Shown one piece after another: positions 5,039 to 40,968 of a DNA stretch of 40,968 bases; position 1 is the stretch's first letter; each line of letters opens with the position of its first letter. The stretch comes from Pseudofrankia coriaricola (GTDB lineage Bacteria > Actinomycetota > Actinomycetes > Frankiales > Frankiaceae): positions 1 to 40,968 of the forward strand of contig NZ_MBLO01000241.1 in the NCBI RefSeq assembly GCF_001854805.1, given 5' to 3'. The position numbers and the translations under genes are program-made. Under the pieces are notes generated by a model, which did not search any database, was not told where the DNA came from, and was given only the letters and a program-made list of their open reading frames with translations.

Positions 5039-5175
5039 GGTTCCGCCTCCTTCGCTCGTCCCGTTGCGTCGCCGCCGCTCGCGTCGCCGCGGAGGTCCTT
5101 GGGGACGGCACGCGGGGCCGCTGTGCGGAGGTCCCGCCGGCCCCCGCCAGAGATGTGTCACCTTGGGTGATTGTT

Positions 5176-5192
5176 CGGGATACTGTATCCGT
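5176..5192. promoter_or_regulatory. Dyad operator, probable GntR site 3
   Basis: GGATACTGTATCC (5178-5190) is a perfect 13-bp dyad centred on one T and identical to the core of the site at 1007-1025. The identity continues with GT on the right. It lies about 140 bp upstream of the Mo-subunit start. Role inferred from the repeat and the adjacent GntR gene. Confidence 0.65.
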
Positions 5193-5256
5193 CACGGTCG
5201 CGTCGGACTACCGTGCGGGGGCGACTGGCGCGGGCCTGACCGTAGCCGCGAAAGAT

Positions 5257-5270
5257 TACGGATACGTGTC
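5257..5270. promoter_or_regulatory. Degenerate GntR-type site 4
   Basis: TACGGATAC (5257-5265) equals the full left arm of site 1. The right arm is degenerate (GTGTC). A weaker or half-occupied site is plausible. Confidence 0.35.
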
Positions 5271-5363
5271 AACGATGGTGCGGGCCAGGGGAAGCCGGGT
5301 CTCGTCCCGCCCACTTGCCTGGCCGTGCCCAGGAGAGTGGGCGGCCGGGGCTGGCCCACGTAC

Positions 5364-5382
5364 TTGTATCCAAATGGCATAC
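5364..5382. promoter_or_regulatory. GntR-type site 5, upstream of gntR
   Basis: TTGTATCCA followed by AATGGCATAC gives outer GTAT...ATAC symmetry. The nonamer matches the minus-strand site at 1158-1166. It lies about 120 bp upstream of the GntR start, which would fit autoregulation. Confidence 0.4.
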
Positions 5383-5498
5383 TCGCCTGGCCGGCTGGTC
5401 GGCACCGGGTGCTGGCCGGCCGCGTCAACGGAGTCGTCTCCGGCTGCGCGAGGCTTCGCCGTCGTCGCTCAGCCTTCGGCGGTCGTGGGGAGGACACG

Positions 5499-6140
5499 TT
5501 GTCGATCGGGGAGAGCCACCGTCCGCTGCGGGACACGGTGCTCGACGAGCTGCGCGGGCGAATTCTGGACCGCAGGCTCCCGCCCGGCACACGGCTGACC
5601 GAGACGTTCACGTCCGAGCTGCTAGGGGTGTCCCGGCTACCGGTCCGTGAGGCGTTTCGCCGGCTGGAGTCGGAGGGGCTGGTCGAGGCGCTGCCGCGCC
5701 GTGGAGTGCGCGTCGTCGAGCGGCCCGTGCACGAGCTGGCGACCATCCACGAGATCCGGGTGAACCTGGAGCTCATGGCCGTGCGGCGCGCCGCCGCCCG
5801 CCACGACGCCGAGACGGTGGCCGCGCTCGAACGGCTGCTGGCCGACGGTGCCGCCGCGGCCGCCGACGGCGACAGGGCGGCGCTCGAACGACTCAACGGC
5901 GAGTTCCACGATGTGCTCGCGCGCGGCTCCGGGTCCCGGGTCCTCGCCGACGTGCTCCGCTGGGTGCGCAACCAGTCGCACCACCTGGCCGGCGGCTGGG
6001 TCAGCCCGGCCGACCTGTCCTGGGAGGAGCACGCCTCGATCGTGCGGGCGGTGCTCGCCGAGGACGCCGAGATGGCGTCGCTGCTCATGCGCCGCCACCT
6101 GGAGGCGCGCCACGCCGTCCAGGCCGCCGCCGTAAGCTGA
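5499..6140 (+). CDS. GntR-family (FadR/FCD) transcriptional regulator
   Basis: A 213-residue regulator. The N-terminal winged helix spans about residues 8-72, with LRGRILDRRLPPGTRLTE, the recognition region SELLGVSRLPVREAFRRLE, and the wing segment EGLVEALPRRGVRVV. The C-terminal FCD ligand domain has conserved histidines in GEFHDVL, WEEHASIV and MRRHLEA that in this subfamily bind a metal near the effector pocket. The TTG start at 5499 is preferred because GGGGAGGA lies four bases upstream; no ATG or GTG gives the complete winged helix. The gene is divergent from the molybdenum hydroxylase operon, and matching dyads lie in both control regions, so it probably represses the operon and responds to its substrate or product. 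FCD regulators usually bind small carboxylates, which hints at the pathway but does not define it. Confidence 0.93.
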   Translation: MSIGESHRPLRDTVLDELRGRILDRRLPPGTRLTETFTSELLGVSRLPVREAFRRLESEGLVEALPRRGVRVVERPVHELATIHEIRVNLELMAVRRAAARHDAETVAALERLLADGAAAAADGDRAALERLNGEFHDVLARGSGSRVLADVLRWVRNQSHHLAGGWVSPADLSWEEHASIVRAVLAEDAEMASLLMRRHLEARHAVQAAAVS

Positions 6141-6230
6141 CGCGGTCTGGTCAACCGCCTGGTAGACCCGCCGAGCGGCCGTGCCGGCGGCCGGCTGGCG
6201 GGTGGCGGGTGGCGCACGTCCGCACGGCCA

Positions 6231-6316
6231 GTACCACGACCAGTACATCGCGAGACATGCCACAAGGTGGTACTTGAGGTACGGGGTATCTTCCGGTATG
6301 TCCGACCTGGCGGTAC
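6231..6316. promoter_or_regulatory. Cluster of five GTAC tetramers upstream of the glycosyltransferase
   Basis: GTAC occurs at 6231, 6243, 6270, 6279 and 6313, including a CCAGTAC direct repeat with 12-bp period and three GGTAC copies. It lies in the 252-bp gap between the GntR gene and the glycosyltransferase. It may be a protein-binding region for the downstream operon; no known box is recognised. Confidence 0.3.
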
Positions 6317-6392
6317 CTGGGCCCGTCCGCCAGCCGTCCTCCAGTCAACGCGGACAGGTCGCGTCGTCCGCCCGAAAGGCGGCCGACAGCCG

Positions 6393-7646
6393 ATGTCCAC
6401 GCACCGGTCGATGCATCGCACTCTGATCGTCGCGGACAAGTTCCCGCCGGTGCTGGGCGGGATCCAGACCTTCGCCTACGCCTTTGCCGCGACGCTGCCC
6501 GCGGACAAGGTCCTCGTCGTCGCGCCGCCGCACCCCGACGCGCCCAAACTGGACGCGGACGCGCCCTTCGAGATCATCCGGCATCCGGCGGCCCGGCTGC
6601 GCCTGCCCGGGGTGGGGCCCGTCATCGGCCGGATCGCGCGTGCCGAGGGCTGCACCGCCGCCTGGTTCCCGGCCGGCACACCCCGCGGGATGATCGCCCC
6701 CGCGCTGCGCCGAGCAGGCGTGGAATGGGTGGTGTCGTCCACGCACGGGCATGAGTACGGATGGTCGCAGCTTCCGTACGGCTGGTCCCTGGTACGGGCG
6801 ATCGCCTCGCGGGCGGACGTCGTCACCCACCTGACCGACGTGACCCTGCGCCGCCTGCGCAAGGTCGCGCCCGCCGGGACCCGCTTCGAGCGGCTGACCG
6901 GCGGCGTCGACGTCGAACGGTTCCAGCCCGGCGCGGGCGGCGAGGACATCCGCCGCCGGAATGGCTGGGGCGACCGGCCTGTTGTGACCTCTGTCGCCCG
7001 CCTGGTGCCGCGCAAGGGCCAGGACGTCTTGATCAGGGGGCTGCCGTCGGTGTTGCGTGACCATCCGGACACGCTCCTGGTCGTCATCGGCCGGGGGCGC
7101 AACGCGGGCCGGCTGCGACGACTGGCGGCGAGCGCCGGGGTCAGGGAAAATGTGGTCTTCGCGGGCGCCGTCCCCGAAGGGGACCTGCCCGCGTACCTGG
7201 ACGCGGCGGATGTGTTCGCGATGCCGTCGCGGCCCGCCAAGCTTGGACTGGACCTGGAGGGACTCGGACTGTCGTCGCTGGAAGCCGCCGCGGCGGGCAA
7301 GCCGGTGATCACCGGCGCCGCTGGGGGCGCACCCGAGGTCGTGATCCCCGGTGAGACCGGGCTGGTCGTCGACGGTACCGATGTGTCCGCGGTCGCCCGC
7401 GCCGTCGGCGAGCTGCTCGCCGACCCGGACCGCGCCCGCCGCATGGGCGCGGCCGGCCGCGAGTTCATGACGTCGGCCTGGACCTGGGAGTACCTCGGCG
7501 GCCGGCTCGCCGCGCTGCTGACCGGCCCGTCGTATGCCTCCGTCCTCGCGGGCGGCCCAGCACCGGGGCCCACCCGGCCATCCCCGGCTCCCCTGCCGAC
7601 CGCTCCGTCCTCGCCGCGCCGCACGGACGGCGCGACGGCGCGATGA
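6393..7646 (+). CDS. GT4-family mannosyltransferase, PimB-like
   Basis: The 417-residue GT-B glycosyltransferase resembles the actinobacterial PimB enzymes that add the second mannose to phosphatidylinositol mannoside from GDP-mannose at the cytoplasmic membrane face. Visible signatures in order are DKFPPVLGGIQTF near the N-terminus, SSTHGHEYGWSQLP, RLVPRKGQD at the nucleotide-binding domain start, FAMPSR, the EX7E motif E289/E297 in LEGLGLSSLEA, and GGAPEVV. These motifs correspond closely to corynebacterial PimB as I remember it. A low-complexity Pro/Ser tail of about 30 residues follows the fold. ATG 6393 is used; ATG 6411 is a good alternative because homology begins at HRTLIV, and neither has a strong ribosome site. 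The stop overlaps the next ATG (ATGA), coupling it to the multi-pass membrane protein. Other mannosyl acceptors are possible. Confidence 0.88.
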   Translation: MSTHRSMHRTLIVADKFPPVLGGIQTFAYAFAATLPADKVLVVAPPHPDAPKLDADAPFEIIRHPAARLRLPGVGPVIGRIARAEGCTAAWFPAGTPRGMIAPALRRAGVEWVVSSTHGHEYGWSQLPYGWSLVRAIASRADVVTHLTDVTLRRLRKVAPAGTRFERLTGGVDVERFQPGAGGEDIRRRNGWGDRPVVTSVARLVPRKGQDVLIRGLPSVLRDHPDTLLVVIGRGRNAGRLRRLAASAGVRENVVFAGAVPEGDLPAYLDAADVFAMPSRPAKLGLDLEGLGLSSLEAAAAGKPVITGAAGGAPEVVIPGETGLVVDGTDVSAVARAVGELLADPDRARRMGAAGREFMTSAWTWEYLGGRLAALLTGPSYASVLAGGPAPGPTRPSPAPLPTAPSSPRRTDGATAR

Positions 7647-8812
7647 GCGAACCAGCTGAGCGAGAGGACGCGCCGGCGCCTGCGTCGGCGACGATTCTGC
7701 TCGAGTCCTCGTCGCCCGAAACCCAGCCTCCAGAATCCCCGTCTTCAGAAGTCCAGCTGCTGGAGGTCCAGCTGCTGGAAGTCCAGCTGTCAGAAGTCCA
7801 GCTGTCAGAAGTCCAGCTGCCGGAAACCCCGCCGTCCGGGACGGAGCTGCCCGAGACGACGCCCGCGAGCTCGCCGTCGGCGGCGAGGTCCCGCCGGTCT
7901 CGGCGGATCATGGCTGCGCTCAGCATCGTCGCGCCCGCCGTGGGCGCGACGTGGCTCGGGACCCACCACGAGGAACTGCGGGCGGCCTTCCTGGCCTGCA
8001 AGCGGGCCGACGGCGAGTGGCTGCTGGTCGCGGTGGTGGCCGCGTGCGCGACCTACTTCGCCGCGGCGGCGAGCATGAAGGGCGCGGTGACGCGCAAGCT
8101 CCCGTTCGGCCAGCTGCTCGCCATCCAGATCGCCGCGATCCTGCCGAACGTGCTGGTGCCCGCCGGCATGGGCGTCGCCGCCCTGCAGACCCGTTACCTG
8201 CTCCGGCGCGGCCTGACGATGGCCGAAGCCGTCGCCTCGACCGCCGCGAACGCGACGGCCGGCGCGATCCCGCATGCCCTGATGTTCGTCGTGCTCCTGT
8301 TCGCCGGGGCGGTCCCGCTGCCGCACCTCGCGTTCGGCGGGAGTACTCGCTACTTCGTGGTCGCCACCGTGGCGGCGGCGTTCGTGGCGGCGTGCGTGCC
8401 CAAGGTCCGTCGGGCCGTCGGCCTGGGGGTACGCCGGCTCGTCGAGCACCGTGACCTGCTGGCCGGCTCGGGCAGCACCAGGCGGGCTGTGCTGCTGTGG
8501 GGAGGCTCGATCGCGATCCCGATGCTGCACGCCGCGACGCTGTGCGCGATCGCGGCCGCGCTGCACGCACCGCTCGGCCCTGGGAAGATCATCGTGGTCT
8601 ACCTGGTGGCGAGCGCGCTGTCGGCCGTCATCCCGTCGCCCGGTGGCTTCGGCGGGCTCGACGCCGCCCTGACCGCGCTGCTCACCGGCGCCGGCGTGCC
8701 CACCGCGACGGCGATCGCCGCCGTCCTCGGCTACCGCCTGCTCACCGCCTGGCTCCCGCTGGCCCCCTCCGCGGCCGTCTGCGGCGTCCTCATCCGCACC
8801 CGCGTCATCTGA
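7643..8812 (+). CDS. YbhN/LPG-synthase-TM family membrane protein (flippase-like)
   Basis: The 389-residue protein begins with an acidic, repeat-rich N-terminus of about 85 residues. About seven or eight hydrophobic helices follow, from about residue 91 to the end. Motifs such as ILPNVLVPAGMGVAALQTRYLLRRGL, SALSAVIPSPGGFGG and LGYRLLTAWLPL are typical of the lysylphosphatidylglycerol-synthase TM / UPF0104 family, which includes lipid flippases and polyprenol-linked transport proteins. The soluble aminoacyl-transfer domain of MprF is absent. It overlaps the mannosyltransferase gene by ATGA, so a role in moving or handling the mannolipid product is a reasonable inference. Five 15-bp repeats encode Glu-Val-Gln-Leu-rich units before the first helix. 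A 10-bp direct repeat (ATCTGACGAG, 8807-8826) spans the stop codon. Confidence 0.85.
   Translation: MSEPAEREDAPAPASATILLESSSPETQPPESPSSEVQLLEVQLLEVQLSEVQLSEVQLPETPPSGTELPETTPASSPSAARSRRSRRIMAALSIVAPAVGATWLGTHHEELRAAFLACKRADGEWLLVAVVAACATYFAAAASMKGAVTRKLPFGQLLAIQIAAILPNVLVPAGMGVAALQTRYLLRRGLTMAEAVASTAANATAGAIPHALMFVVLLFAGAVPLPHLAFGGSTRYFVVATVAAAFVAACVPKVRRAVGLGVRRLVEHRDLLAGSGSTRRAVLLWGGSIAIPMLHAATLCAIAAALHAPLGPGKIIVVYLVASALSAVIPSPGGFGGLDAALTALLTGAGVPTATAIAAVLGYRLLTAWLPLAPSAAVCGVLIRTRVI
7745..7819 (+). repeat. In-frame tandem repeat, five 15-bp units
   Basis: Five consecutive units of the form (TCAGAA or CTGGAR)GTCCAGCTG, each coding for a five-residue SEVQL/LEVQL unit. They lie in the cytoplasmic or disordered N-terminus of the membrane protein. 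The unit length keeps the frame if copies are gained or lost. Confidence 0.95.
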
Positions 8813-32208: not shown

Positions 32209-34143
32209 ATGAGCGTTCCCACGGCCGAGTTGGAGCTCGCCGCGCTGTTCCCGGAAGCGTCGCGAGAAGCCTGGCAGAAGCTGGTGCTCGCGGTTCTGCG
32301 CAAGTCGGGAATAGCCGGTGAGCAGGCCGTCCCGGCCGACGCGGAGTCGCTGCTCGCGACCGCCACCTACGACGGTTTCGCGATCAAGCCGCTTTATACA
32401 GCGGGTGACGGCGCGCCCGTCGATGTCGGCGTGCCCGGCCTCGCTCCGTTCGTCCGCGGGCGACGCGCCGAGGGCGCGGTCGAGGGCTGGGACGTGCGTG
32501 CCGCGCACACCCACCCGGACGCGAAGACGACCGCGGAGGCCGTGCTCGCCGACCTGGAGGGCGGTGTCACGTCGCTGTGGCTGCGGCTCGCACCGGCCGG
32601 TGGCATCGCCGTCGAGGCCCTGCCGGACGTGCTGCGCGACGTCTACCTCGACCTCGCGCCGGTCGTGCTCGACACCGGCGGCGACGCAGTGACGACGACC
32701 GCCGCGGCCGACGTGCTGCTCGCGCTCGCGGCTGCCCGTGGGGTCGCGCCGTCGGTGCTGGCGGGGACTCTCGGCGCCGACCCGCTCGGCTACGCGGCCC
32801 GCACCGGCCTCGCCGGCGAGGCGGTGACAGCCCACCTGGACGAGGCGTCGCGGCTCGCCGAGCGGGTCGCCGCGAGCTATCCGGGGATCCGGACGTTCGT
32901 CGTCGACGCGACGCCGTACCACGACGCGGGCGGCAGTGACGCGCAGGAGCTCGGCGCGTCGCTGGCCACCGGGGTTGCCTACCTGCGGGCTCTCACTGGC
33001 CCGCACTTGGCCACTAGCGGCGCAGCGGCCGGCTTCGACGTCGCCGGCGCGCTCGGCCAGCTGGAGTTCCGCTATGCCGCGACCGCGGGCCAGTTCTCGA
33101 CGATCGCGAAGCTGCGCGCGGCCCGGCTGCTGTGGGCCCGCGTCGCCGAGGTCTGCGGCGCCGCCGAGGCCGACCGGGGGCAGCGCCAGCACGCCGTCAC
33201 GTCGTCGGCGATGATGAGCCGGCGCGACCCGTACGTGAACCTGCTGCGCACGACGATCGCCGCGTTCGCCGCCGGCGTCGGCGGCGCCGACGCGATCACC
33301 GTGCTGCCGTTCGACGGGCGCCTGGGCCTCCCGGACGACATGTCCCGCCGGCTGGCCCGCAACATCCAGGTGCTGCTGCAGGAGGAGTCGAGCCTGACCC
33401 GGGTGATCGACCCGGCGGGCGGTTCCTGGTACGTCGAGACGCTGACGGCCGAGCTCGCCGAGGCGGCCTGGGCGTTCTTCACCGAGATCGAGCGGGCCGG
33501 CGGGATGGCGGCGGCGCTCGCCGTCGGCCTCGTCGGCGAGCGGATCGACGCCACCTGGGCGCGCCGCCGGGAGGACCTCGCGCTGCGCCGCGCGCCGCTG
33601 ACGGGCGTCAGCGAGTTCCCGAACGTCGCCGAGACGTTGCCGGCGCGCGCCCCGGCACCGGTGCGGACGCTGACCGGCGGGCTGCCGGTCCGGCACTACG
33701 ATGAGGACTACGAGGACCTGCGCGCCCGCGCGGACGCCGAGCTGGCGGCGAGCGGTGCCCGGCCGGTGGCGTTCCTCGCCACGATCGGGTCGCTCGCGGC
33801 CTTCACCCCGCGCGCGACGTTCGCCGCGAACCTGTTCCAGGCCGGCGGGTTCGACACCCCGAACGCGGGCCCCGGCGACGACCCGGTGGCGATCGCCGCG
33901 GCGTTCACCGCGTCCGGCGCGAAGATCGCCTGCCTGTGCGCGTCGGACAAGGTGTACGCGGCCAGCGCCGCGCCCGTCGCCGCCGCGCTCAAGGCCGCGG
34001 GCGCCACCCACATCTGGCTCGCAGGCAAGGCGGGGGAGCGGGCAGCGTCGGATGAGGCGGCCGGGATCGGCGGCTACGTCTTCACCGGCTGCGACGCGGT
34101 CGACGTCCTGCGCTCCGCTCTAGCGAAGGCCGAGGTCGCCTGA
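32209..34143 (+). CDS. mutA: methylmalonyl-CoA mutase small subunit
   Basis: The 644-residue non-catalytic subunit of the MutAB heterodimer interconverts (R)-methylmalonyl-CoA and succinyl-CoA with MutB. It begins [20 protein letters not shown], has [15 protein letters not shown], a TIM-barrel part with [18 protein letters not shown] and [12 protein letters not shown] motifs, and a C-terminal B12-fold domain. The DxHxxG cobalamin signature of MutB is absent, as expected for MutA. ATG 32209 is preferred because family similarity begins there; a GTG at 32155 would add 18 residues. MutA TGA and MutB ATG share one base (TGATG), ensuring equal synthesis. A 97-bp leader separates it from the methyltransferase; I saw no B12 riboswitch there. 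Confidence 0.95.
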
Positions 34144-36455
34144 TGAACAGCAAGGACCTGATTCCCGACTTCGCCGGCGTCGAGCTCGGCCTCGCCGCCG
34201 CGTCGGCGGCGTCGGCGGCTGGTCCGGACAGCGCCGCTCTCGCGCATCAGGAAGGCCAGTGGCGCGCCGCCGTCGAGGCGGCGACCGGCAAGAACATCGA
34301 CGCGCTGGCCTGGGACACCCCGGAGGGCATCGAGGTCAAGCCGCTCTACACCGCCGCTGACACGGCGGGTCTCGACTTCCTCGACACCTACCCGGGGATC
34401 GCGCCGTTCCTGCGCGGGCCGTACGCGCCGATGTACGTCACCCAGCCGTGGACGATCCGCCAGTACGCCGGCTTCTCGACGGCCGCCGATTCGAACGCCT
34501 TCTACCGCCGCAACCTGGCCGCGGGCCAGAAGGGCCTCTCGGTCGCCTTCGACCTGCCGACCCACCGGGGCTACGACTCCGACCACCCGCGGGTGACCGG
34601 CGACGTCGGCATGGCGGGCGTGGCGATCGACTCGATCTACGACATGCGCCAGCTGTTCGACGGCATCCCGCTGGACAAGATGAGCGTGTCGATGACGATG
34701 AACGGCGCCGTGCTGCCGATCCTGTCGCTCTACATCGTCGCGGCCGAGGAGCAGGGTGTCGCCCCGGAGCAGCTGGCCGGGACCATCCAGAACGACATCC
34801 TCAAGGAGTTCATGGTCCGCAACACCTACATCTACCCGCCGAAGCCGTCGATGCAGATCATCTCGGACATCTTTGCGTACTCCTCGCAGAAGATGCCGAA
34901 GTTCAACTCGATCTCCATCTCGGGTTACCACATGCAGGAGGCGGGCGCTAGCGCGGACCTGGAGCTCGCCTACACGCTCGCCGACGGCGTCGAGTACATC
35001 CGCGCGGGCCTTGCCGCGGGCCTCGACATCGACGCGTTCGCGCCGCGGCTGTCATTCTTCTGGGCGATCGGCATGAACTTCTTCATGGAGGTCGCCAAGA
35101 TGCGGGCCGCGCGGCTGATCTGGGCGCGGCTGGTGAAGGAGTTCGGCCCGAAGAGCACCAAGTCGCTGTCGCTGCGGACGCACTCGCAGACCTCCGGCTG
35201 GTCGCTGACCGCCCAGGACGTCTTCAACAACGTCGCCCGCACCTGCATCGAGGCGATGGCCGCCACCCAGGGCCACACCCAGTCGCTGCACACCAACGCC
35301 CTCGACGAGGCGCTGGCGCTGCCGACCGACTTCTCCGCCCGGATCGCCCGCAACACCCAGCTGTTCCTGCAGCAGGAGTCCGGCACCACCCAGGTCATCG
35401 ACCCCTGGGGCGGGAGCTACTACGTCGAGCGGCTCACCTACGACCTCGCCCGCAAGGCCTGGGGCCACATCACCGAGGTCGAGGAGCGCGGCGGCATGGC
35501 GGCGGCGATCGACGCCGGCATCCCGAAGCTGCGGATCGAGGAGGTCGCGGCTCGCACCCAGGCCCGCATCGACTCCGGCCGCCAGCCGCTCGTCGGCGTC
35601 AACAAGTACCGCCTCACCGGCGGGGAGGACATCGAGGTCCTCAAGGTCGACAACTCGGCGGTGCGCACCGAGCAGCTCGCCAAGCTGCGCCAGCTGCGGG
35701 CAGACCGCGACCCGCACGCCGTCGAGGCCGCCCTCGCCGCCCTCACCCGCGCCGCCGAGGAGGCCCAGGCGGGCACCCGGGCCGTGGGCCTCGACGGCAA
35801 CCTGCTCAAGCTCGGCGTCGACGCCGCCCGCGCGAAGGCGACCGTCGGGGAGATCTCCGACGCGTTGGAGAAGGTCTACGGGCGGCACGCCGCGCAGATC
35901 CGTACGATTTCCGGCGTGTACCGCGACGAGGCCGGGCCTTCGCCCGAGATCAGCCGGGCGCGCGCGCTGGCCACCGCGTTCGAGCAGGCCGAGGGCCGCC
36001 GCCCCCGCATCCTGATCGCCAAGATGGGCCAGGACGGCCACGACCGCGGCCAGAAGGTCGTCGCCTCCGGCTACGCCGACCTCGGCTTCGACGTGGACGT
36101 GGGCCCGCTGTTCCAGACGCCGGCCGAGGTCGCCCGCCAGGCCGTCGAGGCGGACGTGCAGATCGTCGGCGTGTCGTCGCTGGCCGCCGGCCACCTGACG
36201 CTGGCGCCGGAGCTGCGCGCGGAGCTGGCCAAGCTCGACCGGGCCGACATCCTGGTGACCTTCGGCGGCGTCATCCCGCCGCAGGACTACGACGCGCTGC
36301 GCGCCGCCGGCGCCGCGGCGATCTTCCCACCGGGCACGAGCGTCGCCGAGTCCGCCGTCGAGGTCCTCGGCATCCTCGCCGCCCAGCTCGGCCACGACCT
36401 CGGCGCCCCCAACGACGGCACCGACGGCGCCGAGCCCACCGCCGGCGCGGCCTGA
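34143..36455 (+). CDS. mutB: methylmalonyl-CoA mutase large subunit (catalytic)
   Basis: The 770-residue adenosylcobalamin-dependent catalytic subunit is long but otherwise very close to the Propionibacterium enzyme as I recall it. Residues needed for substrate and catalysis are present in [47 protein letters not shown] and [12 protein letters not shown]. The cobalamin domain has [11 protein letters not shown] with lower-ligand H633, followed by [10 protein letters not shown] and [12 protein letters not shown]. The last ~20 residues are a variable acidic tail. It overlaps mutA by one base, and meaB begins four bases after its stop. The pathway role is propionyl-CoA assimilation or, in reverse, supply of methylmalonyl-CoA for polyketides. 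Confidence 0.97.
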
Positions 36456-36459
36456 CGCG

Positions 36460-37521
36460 GTGACGGAGGTCCTCGCCCGCGTGCCCTCGTCCCGCCCACC
36501 CATCGAGGTCGACGCCTACGCCGACGGGGTGCTCGCGAACAACCGGACGATGGTCGCGCGGGCGATCACCCTGGTCGAGTCGAGCCGGGCCGACCACCGG
36601 GAGGCGGCGCAGCGGCTGCTGGTGAAGCTGCTTCCGCACACGGGCAAGGCCCGCCGGGTCGGGATCACGGGCGTGCCGGGCGTGGGCAAGTCGACGTTCA
36701 TCGACACGCTCGGCACGACGCTGACCGGCGCCGGCCACCGGGTCGCGGTGCTCGCCGTCGACCCGTCGTCGACCCGCACCGGCGGCAGCATTCTCGGCGA
36801 CAAGACGCGGATGGCGACGCTGTCCGCCGACCCGAACGCGTTCATCCGGCCGTCGCCGACGGCGGGCACGCTCGGCGGCGTCGCGAAGGCCACCCGCGAG
36901 GCGATCGTCATCATGGAGGCCGCCGGCTACGACGTCGTGCTCGTCGAGACGGTCGGCGTCGGCCAGTCGGAGACGACCGTCGCCGACATGGTCGACACCT
37001 TCCTGTTCCTGACGCTCGCCCGCACCGGCGACCAGCTGCAGGGCATCAAGAAGGGCGTCCTCGAGATCGCCGACGTCATCGCCGTGAACAAGGCCGACGG
37101 GCCGCACGAGATCGACGCCCAGCGGGCGGCCCGCGAGCTCGCCGGCGCGCTGCGGATGCTGCGCGCCCCCGACGACGGCTGGCGCGCCCCGGTCCTGACC
37201 TGTTCCGCGATCGAGAACAAGGGCCTGGACGAGGTGTGGGACCAGGTCGTCGCCCACCAGGACCTGCTCGACGCCGGCGGGCTGCTGGCGGCGAAACGCC
37301 GCCGCCAGCAGGTTGACTGGACGTGGGCGATGGTGCATGATCGGCTGCTCGCCGACCTGCACGCCCACCCGGCCGTCCGCGCGCTCGGGCCCGACCTGGA
37401 ACGCCGCGTCCGCGACGGCACGCTCACGCCCAGCCTCGCCGCCGACGCGATCCTCGCCGCCTACGCCCAGCCCACCGCCGGTCCCGCTGGTCCCGAGGCA
37501 GACGCCGACCCGGTCGCCTGA
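36460..37521 (+). CDS. meaB: methylmalonyl-CoA mutase-associated GTPase
   Basis: The 353-residue G3E-type GTPase gates cobalamin loading and protects MutAB from inactivation. GITGVPGVGKSTFID is the P-loop, AVDPSSTRTGGSILGDKTRM the switch I/metal region, VETVGVGQSE the Walker B and switch III area, and VNKADG the guanine-specificity motif (NKAD). The C-terminal arm (DWTWAMVHDRLLADLHAHPAVRALGPDLERRVRDGTL) is the dimerisation extension found in MeaB. The GTG start lies four bases after mutB. The GTPase is freestanding, not fused with the mutase as in IcmF. A short SH3-like remnant lies just after the stop. Confidence 0.96.
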   Translation: MTEVLARVPSSRPPIEVDAYADGVLANNRTMVARAITLVESSRADHREAAQRLLVKLLPHTGKARRVGITGVPGVGKSTFIDTLGTTLTGAGHRVAVLAVDPSSTRTGGSILGDKTRMATLSADPNAFIRPSPTAGTLGGVAKATREAIVIMEAAGYDVVLVETVGVGQSETTVADMVDTFLFLTLARTGDQLQGIKKGVLEIADVIAVNKADGPHEIDAQRAARELAGALRMLRAPDDGWRAPVLTCSAIENKGLDEVWDQVVAHQDLLDAGGLLAAKRRRQQVDWTWAMVHDRLLADLHAHPAVRALGPDLERRVRDGTLTPSLAADAILAAYAQPTAGPAGPEADADPVA

Positions 37522-38747: not shown

Positions 38748-39239
38748 TCAGCCCCCGTGGGCCTCGGCCGTCCAGGTGATGACCGGTGGGCGCACGGAGG
38801 CGCAGAGGGGATGCCCCTTCGGATCGGTGAGGCCGAGGCGGCCGACGAGCAGGCCCCAGGCGACGGCCTCGGCGAGGATCTCGGTGGGCACCGCGTTCAG
38901 CCACAGCTTGGCCCGCCGGAACATCGTGAAGCCACCCTCGGCCGGGTCGACCACACCCCAGCTCAGGTAGATGAAGCGCTCGCCGGGCCGGCCCTGGATG
39001 TGCTGCCCCCGGAGATCGATCCCGCCGGGCGTGGCGGTGGCGGTGGCGGTGGCGGTGGCGGTGGCGGTGCACTCGAGCGTCCACACCGCCGCCGCGGCGT
39101 CGCCCGGGACGAGGCCGAGCAGCTCGGCGGGCCGGCCCCGCCGCTGGACGGCGACGTGGATGTCCGCGTACCCCGGGAAACCGGGCGCGCCCGCGCACGC
39201 CCGGCCCGGCAGGTCCGACCCCTCGACGCGGATCAGCAC
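38748..39239 (-). CDS. DUF5990-type protein of unknown function
   Basis: The 163-residue protein has conserved-looking segments IRVEGSDLPGR, YADIHVAVQRRGRPAELLGL, RGQHIQGRPGERFIYLSWG and FTMFRRAKLWLNAVPTEIL, which match the DUF5990 family as I recall it (moderate confidence). No signal peptide or membrane helix is seen, and no enzyme motif. The GTG start at 39239 follows GGGGGAAGG by eight bases and lies 20 bp after the stop of the Hsp70/PstS-like gene on the same strand, so the two are probably co-transcribed. An Ala-Thr repeat encoded by a hexanucleotide run interrupts the middle of the protein, and close relatives may lack it. Confidence 0.7.
   Translation of the reverse strand: MLIRVEGSDLPGRACAGAPGFPGYADIHVAVQRRGRPAELLGLVPGDAAAAVWTLECTATATATATATATPGGIDLRGQHIQGRPGERFIYLSWGVVDPAEGGFTMFRRAKLWLNAVPTEILAEAVAWGLLVGRLGLTDPKGHPLCASVRPPVITWTAEAHGG
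39031..39069. repeat. Hexanucleotide microsatellite, six units
   Basis: GTGGCG is repeated six times (39031-39066) plus GTG. Read on the coding strand it makes an alternating Ala-Thr tract in the DUF5990-type protein. Unit length keeps frame. The tract is the kind that changes copy number easily. Confidence 0.95.
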
Positions 39240-39259: not shown

Positions 39260-40968
39260 TCAGGCGGTTACCGGGCCTACTCCCTGGGATAGCTGGCCCA
39301 GGCGTTCGATGTTGGACTTGGTGGTGGCGTTGGAGCGCCCGACGTAGCCGGTCTCGGTCGTGATGGTCTGCGCGTGCTCCAGGTAGTAGCGCAGGTAGGC
39401 GACGGTGGCCGGGTCCTTCAGCGCGTCGACGCGGGCGTAGACGAACAGCGGCTTGCACAGCGGCACGTAGGCGCCGCTGCCCGCGGTGATGGCGTTCGGC
39501 GGCTGGCAGCCCTCCCCGCCGTTGACGAGCACACCGCGCAGCTTGGAGCCCAGCTGGTTGTACGTCGGGAAGTCGAGGTAGCCGATGGCGTCCCGGTCGT
39601 TCTGCACGGCCTGCGCGACGCCGGCCAGGTCGGTCGTCGTGTAGGGCCGGGACTTGGAGCTCTCGCCGCTGATGCTGGCGTTGAACACCTGGGCCTGCAC
39701 ACTGTCGGGCTTCGGGCCGACGAAGTTGATCGGCTCGTCCGGGTACGACTTGTCGATCTGGTTCCAGCGGGTGACGGTCGAGCCGGCTCCCCAGATCTGC
39801 TTGAGCTGGTCGAGGTTCATGCAGCCCAGCCAGGTGTTGGCCGGGTTCACCACGATCGGCAGGGTGTGGTGCGCGATCTCGAACCCGACCACCTCGTCCT
39901 TACAGCTTGGATTCGGCGCGAACTTCGGGTCCAGCTCGTAGGACGTGCCGGCGATGGCGACCTGGCCGTTGCACAGCTTGGTGAACGCCTGGGTCGTGTC
40001 GGTGACCTGCGGGTCGAAGGCGACCGTCACCTTGGACTCGGTCTGGCGGAACTCCTGGAACGCGCGCTCACTGATCGGCGCGACCTCGTTCGAGTCGGCC
40101 ACCCGGACCAGGTTGCGGGTCACGACCGGCGGTGTCGACGCGGCCGCCGTGGCCGGCTGCGACGACGGCTGGCTGGACGGCTGCGCGGTGATGGTCGGGC
40201 CGGAGCTGTCCGAGCTGGTCAGCGTGAGCCCGAGCGCGGTACCACCGGCGATGAACAGCACCGCCGCGATGATGGCCGCGATTCCGCCCTTGGTGCGCAG
40301 CGAGGCCAGCACGCCCGAGCGGCGTGGCGACCGGCCCCCCGGCCGTTGCGAGGCGTGCCCGCCCGGGGGCCGACCGGCCCCGCCTACGCCGCTGGCCCCG
40401 CCGTGCACGACAGTGCGCGCCCCCGAGCCCGGCCCGGTGCCCCAGGAGACGAGGCCCTGCTGGTCCTGCTGGCTGGCGCCGGAGGCCGCCGCGCCGGCCG
40501 CGCCCGCGCCCGCACCCGCGGCGGTGGCGGTGGCGGTGCTCGCGGTGCTCGCGGTGGTCGCCGGGTAGGCGTCGTAGGCGGCGGTGAGGCGCGCCGTCGA
40601 GTCCGGGTCCCACCCGGCGCCGGCGGCCGCCGCGGCGGCCCCAGGCGCAACGTAGGTCGTGCCGGCCGGCGGCATCGACAGCCCGGGGAAGGACGACAGC
40701 TCCGGCGGCTCCATCGTCGACGGGCCGATCAGCGCCGTCGCGCCGCCGGCGACCGGCTCCGCCTGCTCCGCGAGCCCGGCGGCCAGCAACGCGGCCCCGA
40801 CCGCGAGGTCCTCGGCCGGCCGGTGCTCGAAGCGCCTCGCGCCGGGCAGCGCGGCCCGCACCAGCCGGTCGACCAGCGGCATCCGCGCCACGCCGCCGTA
40901 GAGCAGCACCGCCGACAGCGACTCGGCGGACGCCGGCACCGAGCGCACCGTGCGGACCAGCGCCCGCA
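39260..40968 (-). CDS. Hsp70-like ATPase end fused to membrane span and PstS-like binding domain (5' end outside window)
   Basis: The frame is open from the right edge to the stop at 39260, so the start lies beyond 40968. The first visible part (RALVRTVRSVPASAESLSAV, then LLYGGVARMPLVDRLVRAAL and PAEDLAVGAALLAAGL) matches the end of an Hsp70 nucleotide-binding domain (the vlLvGGsSRiPlV and dPdxAVAlGAA pattern). About 130 low-complexity residues follow, then one membrane helix (IAAIIAAVLFIAGGTALGL, about 40228-40290) and an SSQPSSQPAT-type linker. The rest is a PBP-like domain (LDQLKQIWGAGSTVTRWNQI, YLDFPTYNQLG, PLCKPLFVYARVDALKD) like that of PstS. By orientation the ATPase part is cytoplasmic and the binding domain outside. 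It precedes the DUF5990-type gene by 20 bp. An N-terminal GTG at 40948 is rejected because the Hsp70 pattern already runs before it. Confidence 0.8.
   Translation of the reverse strand, partial: RALVRTVRSVPASAESLSAVLLYGGVARMPLVDRLVRAALPGARRFEHRPAEDLAVGAALLAAGLAEQAEPVAGGATALIGPSTMEPPELSSFPGLSMPPAGTTYVAPGAAAAAAGAGWDPDSTARLTAAYDAYPATTASTASTATATAAGAGAGAAGAAASGASQQDQQGLVSWGTGPGSGARTVVHGGASGVGGAGRPPGGHASQRPGGRSPRRSGVLASLRTKGGIAAIIAAVLFIAGGTALGLTLTSSDSSGPTITAQPSSQPSSQPATAAASTPPVVTRNLVRVADSNEVAPISERAFQEFRQTESKVTVAFDPQVTDTTQAFTKLCNGQVAIAGTSYELDPKFAPNPSCKDEVVGFEIAHHTLPIVVNPANTWLGCMNLDQLKQIWGAGSTVTRWNQIDKSYPDEPINFVGPKPDSVQAQVFNASISGESSKSRPYTTTDLAGVAQAVQNDRDAIGYLDFPTYNQLGSKLRGVLVNGGEGCQPPNAITAGSGAYVPLCKPLFVYARVDALKDPATVAYLRYYLEHAQTITTETGYVGRSNATTKSNIERLGQLSQGVGPVTA

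Follow-up and report, generated by a model that had tools for sequence, protein, structure and literature searches.

Pseudofrankia coriaricola carries a genuine gene fusion, in which an Hsp70 domain and a PstS-like domain are parts of one protein. From the N to the C terminus, this protein consists of an Hsp70 nucleotide-binding domain (NBD), a Gly/Ala/Pro linker, a single membrane helix, and a PstS-type domain. The architecture and the local gene order are the same in two genomes, a set of site residues has been lost from each of the two domains, and the gene is under purifying selection. Our leading but tentative reading is that the protein is a single-pass membrane receptor or scaffold made from two repurposed folds, which would perform neither a normal ATP cycle nor the usual phosphate binding.

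Results

The fusion gene is intact in a second Pseudofrankia genome

We analyzed a DNA stretch of 40,968 b (the window), which is the entire contig C241 of the 11.2-Mb, 280-contig P. coriaricola genome. The contig end cuts the fusion gene (Table 1). Searching the organism's own genome, we found the N-terminal remainder on the minus strand of contig C242 (positions 1-846). The C242 piece is 94% identical to an orthologue from Pseudofrankia asymbiotica NRRL B-16386 over query residues 1-282, the window piece covers residues 294-859, and about 11 codons of the gene fall between the two contigs. The orthologue is complete, with 859 codons in a single uninterrupted frame (NZ_MOMC01000067.1, hereafter L009, positions 5122-7701, plus strand). 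It was the one relative returned by a search of genome contigs with exact peptide patterns taken from one sequence, a search that may leave out own-genome records, and the PBP-fused form is seen in these two closely related genomes.

An earlier note on the window had described an Hsp70-type part, a membrane helix, and a PBP-like part in a single frame, and the intact orthologue confirms this chain. Extension past position 40,968 places the rest of the N-terminal domain on C242, and the orthologue gives a full-length Pfam HSP70 match (E 4.6e-34). No stop or frameshift separates the two parts in the one open frame of P. asymbiotica. The two assemblies agree on the frame and the gene order, which also rules out a chance join or an assembly artefact.

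Table 1. Positions of the fusion gene, its parts, and the following gene in the window.
Feature	Position	Strand	Basis or remark
Fusion gene, 3′ two thirds	39260-40966	minus	568 codons + stop; 5′ end cut by contig end
Final ~70 residues of Hsp70 NBD	40757-40966	minus	Pfam HSP70 profile 322-376
Low-complexity Gly/Ala/Pro/Ser/Thr linker	40289-40756	minus	sequence; R/K residues directly before membrane helix
Single membrane helix GGIAAIIAAVLFIAGGTALGL	40226-40288	minus	hydropathy, sequence
PstS-like (PBP_like_2) domain	39263-40132	minus	Pfam; altered ligand motifs; five cysteines
DUF5990 gene (predicted start)	38748-39239	minus	~20 b downstream, same strand; Pfam DUF5990 5.7e-43 for 38748-39209

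Domain organization of the fusion protein

In the orthologue, the Pfam HSP70 match and a PBP_like_2 match (3.8e-12) both lie above the curated cut-offs; the window piece alone matches HSP70 with E 0.0087, under the Pfam cut-off. The full NBD comprises orthologue residues 1-360. When the Hsp70 domain was searched alone, its best solved relatives were DnaK (1dkg, 1.3e-26). An AlphaFold2 model of the orthologue NBD (40 rows) reached a mean pLDDT of 84.7, and the 50 Foldseek matches listed for it were all Hsp70-type chains (best E 4.2e-27), 4gni (Ssz1) among them. These results bear out the Hsp70-type ATPase fold that the earlier note had recognized from the terminal part of the domain. The substrate-binding domain (SBD) is absent, the HSP70 profile match stopping at position 376 of 599, and neither the alignment nor Pfam revealed a DVLLLDV-type hydrophobic interdomain linker after the NBD.

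The orthologue linker (residues about 361-517) is G/A/P-rich in composition with an R/K-rich end, and the helix follows at residues about 518-540, with a Kyte-Doolittle 19-residue maximum of 2.38 at residue 518. Composition and hydropathy thus support the disordered Gly/Ala/Pro region and the one transmembrane helix noticed before. By the positive-inside rule, the N terminus would lie inside the cell, and the PstS-like domain is predicted to be extracytoplasmic.

The PBP_like_2 domain spans orthologue residues 572-818 (47.0 bits vs a cut-off of 27), and its closest solved structure is 4JWO, deposited as a phosphate-binding protein (2.9e-37). The model of the PBP part (18 rows) is weaker than that of the NBD, with a pLDDT of 73.7 and values <50 at positions 45-47 and 52-55 in the first loops. 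The first 36 of its 50 listed Foldseek matches are phosphate-binding proteins, with 4JWO on top (TM 0.60, rmsd 6.1). The Pfam and 4JWO matches agree with the PBP-like C-terminal domain of the earlier note.

A Ser/Thr kinase gene precedes the fusion gene

Both genomes have the same gene order: a membrane/CBS-type gene (identified by eye), a Ser/Thr kinase gene, the fusion gene, and a DUF5990 gene. The kinase (L009:2040-4862 in P. asymbiotica and C242:1097-3952, or L019, in P. coriaricola) ends about 250-260 b from the fusion gene. It contains a Ser/Thr kinase domain, a linker, a hydrophobic helix, and, past the helix, WD40 repeats, and in overall plan it resembles the fusion protein. Its best NCBIfam match, AfsK, scored 244.7 bits, far under the cut-off of 1300. 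Between the species, the kinase copies are 89% and the DUF5990 copies 88% identical, the domain matches having been run on one copy each. A DUF5990-type gene follows the fusion gene in both genomes, as the earlier note had seen in the window. Comparison with L009:7805 suggests GTG at 39239 as its start. Within this gene, a Thr/Ala dipeptide repeat (window 39030-39068) exceeds in length its counterpart in P. asymbiotica. Further along the window (34143-37521), a methylmalonyl-CoA mutase gene and then a MeaB-type GTPase gene, both ordinary, were identified by eye; the two also occur near the fusion gene in L009.

Identity as a known defence gene is unsupported, with one weak PADLOC candidate match (3.8e-4) inside the Hsp70 domain. 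The neighboring kinase strongly matches the PADLOC kinase-domain models of PD-T4-6 and mad6, which may merely reflect the kinase fold.

The Hsp70 domain has lost conserved nucleotide-site residues

We compared the NBD with the best 80 of 552 Hsp70 homologues. The search patterns for these held D8, G10, T11, T12, N13, D194, G196, G197 (G or A), and G198, so these positions are biased; K70, F146, E171, D201, and E267 lay outside the patterns. In E. coli numbering, K70 is replaced by V in P. asymbiotica and by A in P. coriaricola, and both sequences carry E171 to A, G197 to A, D201 to E, E267 to V, T12 to A, and F146 to W. Among the 80 DnaK-like homologues, K70, F146, E171, G197 (a pattern position), D201, and E267 are each kept in all, and at position 12, likewise in the patterns, 79 have T and one has S. 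E. coli DnaK retains K70, E171, G197, and D201, as do the four actinobacterial membrane Hsp70s that were aligned and all six of the remaining Hsp70-domain proteins encoded by P. coriaricola. E267 is uninformative, being also missing from the four aligned membrane Hsp70s and from another Hsp70-domain protein of the same genome (C274:28779-29936, or L024). The C274 protein, which has a WD40-type C terminus by eye and no strong membrane helix, keeps K70 and E171.

According to the available text of one study, T11 and K70 are the key γ-phosphate sensors, F146 packs on K70, and E171D and E171Q variants still function (PMC12406271), so the loss of E171 alone is indecisive. Lys71 of human Hsp70 is described as catalytically important in the accessible part of another (PMC4013662). 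The GG of the adenosine motif is retained in the Pseudofrankia domain, as are D8, T11, N13, D194, T199, and K270. With these residues in place, a nucleotide may still bind, and slow hydrolysis may be possible.

In the model of the earlier note, the Hsp70 part would be an active ATPase, and its cycling would be linked through the membrane to ligand binding by the PBP domain. The fold behind this idea stood, with T11 in place; the normal ATP cycle became doubtful, since K70, E171, G197, and D201 are replaced. We consider such coupling unlikely. It would agree with the intact predicted NBD fold and the retained D8, T11, D194, and T199, but it has to contend with the four lost residues and the missing interdomain linker, and exchange of T11 or K70 for residues without polar contacts incapacitates allostery, as far as the available text of PMC12406271 describes. 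An ordinary DnaK-type chaperone was rejected, as the K70/E171 pair, the interdomain linker, and the SBD are all missing.

Membrane-anchored Hsp70 proteins occur in other actinobacteria

When plasmid records were searched by tblastn with the whole protein, 190 had a match. None covered 80% of the query, and the 40 for which matches were listed align with the Hsp70 part. With the PBP part as query, 41 records matched; 30 were listed, and those of them that carry an annotation are PstS. Eight of the 190 records were examined in detail. Seven of them hold eight proteins with a common plan of NBD, linker, membrane helix, and another C terminus (hydropathy maxima of at least 2.11 past residue 330), and the eighth (Streptomyces, L030) encodes an ordinary DnaK. 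None of the seven membrane Hsp70s scanned against Pfam carries a PBP domain, the R. opacus protein lying outside the scan. Like the Pseudofrankia protein, these "Hsp70 family proteins" of Rhodococcus, Prescottella, Gordonia, Nocardia, and Nonomuraea have an NBD without an SBD, a linker, a helix, and a C-terminal part. The earlier note named no characterized protein with this architecture. The broad plan is not confined to the Pseudofrankia protein, and public databases already list such proteins under the name "Hsp70 family protein"; as far as we found, the PBP-fused form is a new variant. The Nonomuraea protein (L027:6001-7389) combines its NBD with a CD225 domain (Pfam 3.1e-21), the domain of interferon-induced transmembrane proteins.

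All four aligned membrane Hsp70s keep both K70 and E171, unlike Pseudofrankia. Since most membrane relatives checked retain the pair, its loss may be peculiar to the Pseudofrankia lineage. In the membrane Hsp70-like protein of Nocardia farcinica (L142:2827-4830), E171 is kept but D8, K70, and the GGGT motif are gone, and degeneration therefore extends beyond Pseudofrankia. The Pseudofrankia NBD groups with this protein in a tree (87/85), away from the other membrane Hsp70s, a placement that is only tentative given a long-branch warning and an untrimmed N. farcinica N terminus. The N. farcinica gene adjoins a very long Gly/Ala-rich frame on the opposite strand.

Dynamin-family and GTPase genes lie next to the membrane-Hsp70 genes of Rhodococcus erythropolis and Prescottella, and a GTPase gene next to that of Gordonia. 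These neighbors, the common plan of the eight proteins in seven records, and the motif-degenerate N. farcinica relative would fit an envelope-maintenance factor like the membrane Hsp70s of Mycobacteriales, with the PBP domain merely an envelope anchor or adhesin. We regard this as improbable. The R. rhodochrous stretch has no dynamin or GTPase gene beside its membrane-Hsp70 gene (in the other three records this region is unannotated), no dynamin-family, GTPase, or Gly/Ala-rich-protein gene lies beside the fusion gene in either Pseudofrankia assembly, and the PBP domain is strongly constrained (see below).

The phosphate-site motifs of the PstS-like domain are altered

We aligned the PBP part with seven PstS proteins, namely that of the same genome and those of six of the 41 plasmid records. 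Of 55 columns invariant in the seven, both fused versions retain 23 and change 32; among the 32, two columns are gaps and one concerns nothing but the start methionine. The GSST, SGTGGG, TD..ASR, DSGTF, and EDDN motifs of PstS, which we take to be the phosphate site, are all affected: DGSST became ADSNE, SGTGGG became TDTTQA, TD..ASR became VA..TSY, DSGTFDYF became DSVQAQVF, and EDDN became -DLA. The motifs are likewise altered relative to 20 further PBP homologues (20 of 24 loci, those >190 aa, were counted), which were found with patterns at DSGTFDYF (V, Q allowed) and WNQ..P..PD. Single motif residues are retained (S53, T83, S101, D181, S182, and D208 in the numbering of the own-genome PstS), and some anion binding may be possible with these. 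Four of the five cysteines are at cysteine positions of that PstS.

Of the PstS-like external binder suggested before, the fold held and a PstS-like ligand is doubtful, every phosphate-site motif being altered. The domain scored 126.2 bits against the TIGR02136 PstS subfamily, below the cut-off of 206.6. A motif-intact pstS with pstC, pstA, and pstB forms a cluster elsewhere in the genome, on contig C234 (genes named by eye), and no transporter permease or ATPase gene, pstC/A/B included, lies beside the fusion gene in either Pseudofrankia assembly. On the subfamily score, the motifs, and the lack of adjacent pstC/A/B, an ordinary PstS importer part was rejected. An accessory PBP tethered to the membrane and feeding an ABC importer would share the PstS fold, but with altered phosphate motifs, no transporter genes adjacent, and a separate pstSCAB, it is very unlikely.

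The fusion gene is under purifying selection

Performing pairwise comparison of the two Pseudofrankia species with YN00 in Biopython, we obtained dN/dS values of 0.108 for the N part, 0.058 for the C part, 0.025 for the PBP domain, and 0.19 for the linker, the highest among four C-terminal segments. The PBP ratio is so small in large part because dS is high (0.664), and the PBP dN (0.017) is about that of the helix segment (0.018). The fusion gene is under purifying selection despite the residue loss in both domains. That loss is what a decaying, functionless fusion gene would show, but the dN/dS ratios (0.06-0.11, PBP 0.025) largely refute decay, 859 codons stay open, and the gene is kept with its neighbors in two species; we give this explanation hardly any weight.

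Discussion

Both domains of the fusion protein have lost site residues yet stay constrained, which suggests that they serve as binding surfaces and not as an ATP-driven chaperone or a part of an importer. We therefore return to the receptor or scaffold reading given at the outset. Inside the cell, the protein would present an Hsp70 NBD without the SBD, the allosteric linker, or the γ-phosphate-sensing K70/E171 pair. Any nucleotide binding by this domain is probably weak or static, and the domain would act by docking rather than hydrolysis, with a docking surface as in Ssz1. The outer PstS fold, with its altered site, probably recognizes either an envelope protein or a small ligand other than phosphate. 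If the ligand made the outer domain close or cluster, the docking of partners by the inner domain would change, and an outside signal could possibly be carried to the cytoplasmic domain. The nearest candidate partner is the transmembrane WD40 Ser/Thr kinase encoded immediately upstream; its adjacency in two closely related genomes suggests that the two proteins perhaps work together.

A bolder proposal, about which we have more doubt than confidence, is a new class of bacterial transmembrane receptor that would act alongside a transmembrane kinase with WD40 repeats. Here, an Hsp70-type domain unable to run a normal ATP cycle would replace the kinase domain as the output, and a PBP-fold ectodomain for a new ligand would be the sensor. 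In the open-licence PMC literature, we found no description of an Hsp70 fold as the inner half of a receptor. If the proposal is true, some actinobacterial proteins automatically named "Hsp70 family protein" are receptors or scaffolds and not chaperones. The same literature yielded no published Hsp70-domain/PBP fusion and no published characterization of actinobacterial membrane-anchored Hsp70s.

Several known systems share features with the fusion protein. HSP70 domains without a peptide-binding domain are reported in proteins of actinobacterial and firmicute conflict systems, and the available text of that report does not mention the fusion architecture (PMC7159879). CnuD of the CoCoNuT systems is a bacterial Hsp70-like protein with degenerate ATP motifs; its NBD/SBD units occur in fusion with McrBC-type genes or next to them, and no PBP is mentioned in the accessible part of its description (PMC11090510). 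Like CnuD, Ssz1 and Sse are precedents for Hsp70s that hydrolyze little ATP, the latter two as stated in the available text of PMC8476630. Ssz1, of the fungal ribosome-associated complex, is comparable as an atypical Hsp70 that hydrolyzes ATP hardly or not at all (PMC8476630, same text), but it is soluble and eukaryotic, pairs with Zuo1, has an SBDβ-like part, and is without a membrane helix or a PBP domain.

The PBP part resembles PstS (PF12849, TIGR02136; 4JWO) in fold, in about 30% identity, and in four cysteine positions, but all of its phosphate-site motifs are altered, and it is tied to a membrane and an Hsp70 domain. Transmembrane Ser/Thr kinases of the PknB/PknD type have a cytoplasmic nucleotide-binding domain, a low-complexity linker, a single helix, and an outer domain. 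The fusion protein has this same plan with an Hsp70 fold in place of the kinase fold, and the kinase encoded upstream of it resembles the PknB/PknD type.
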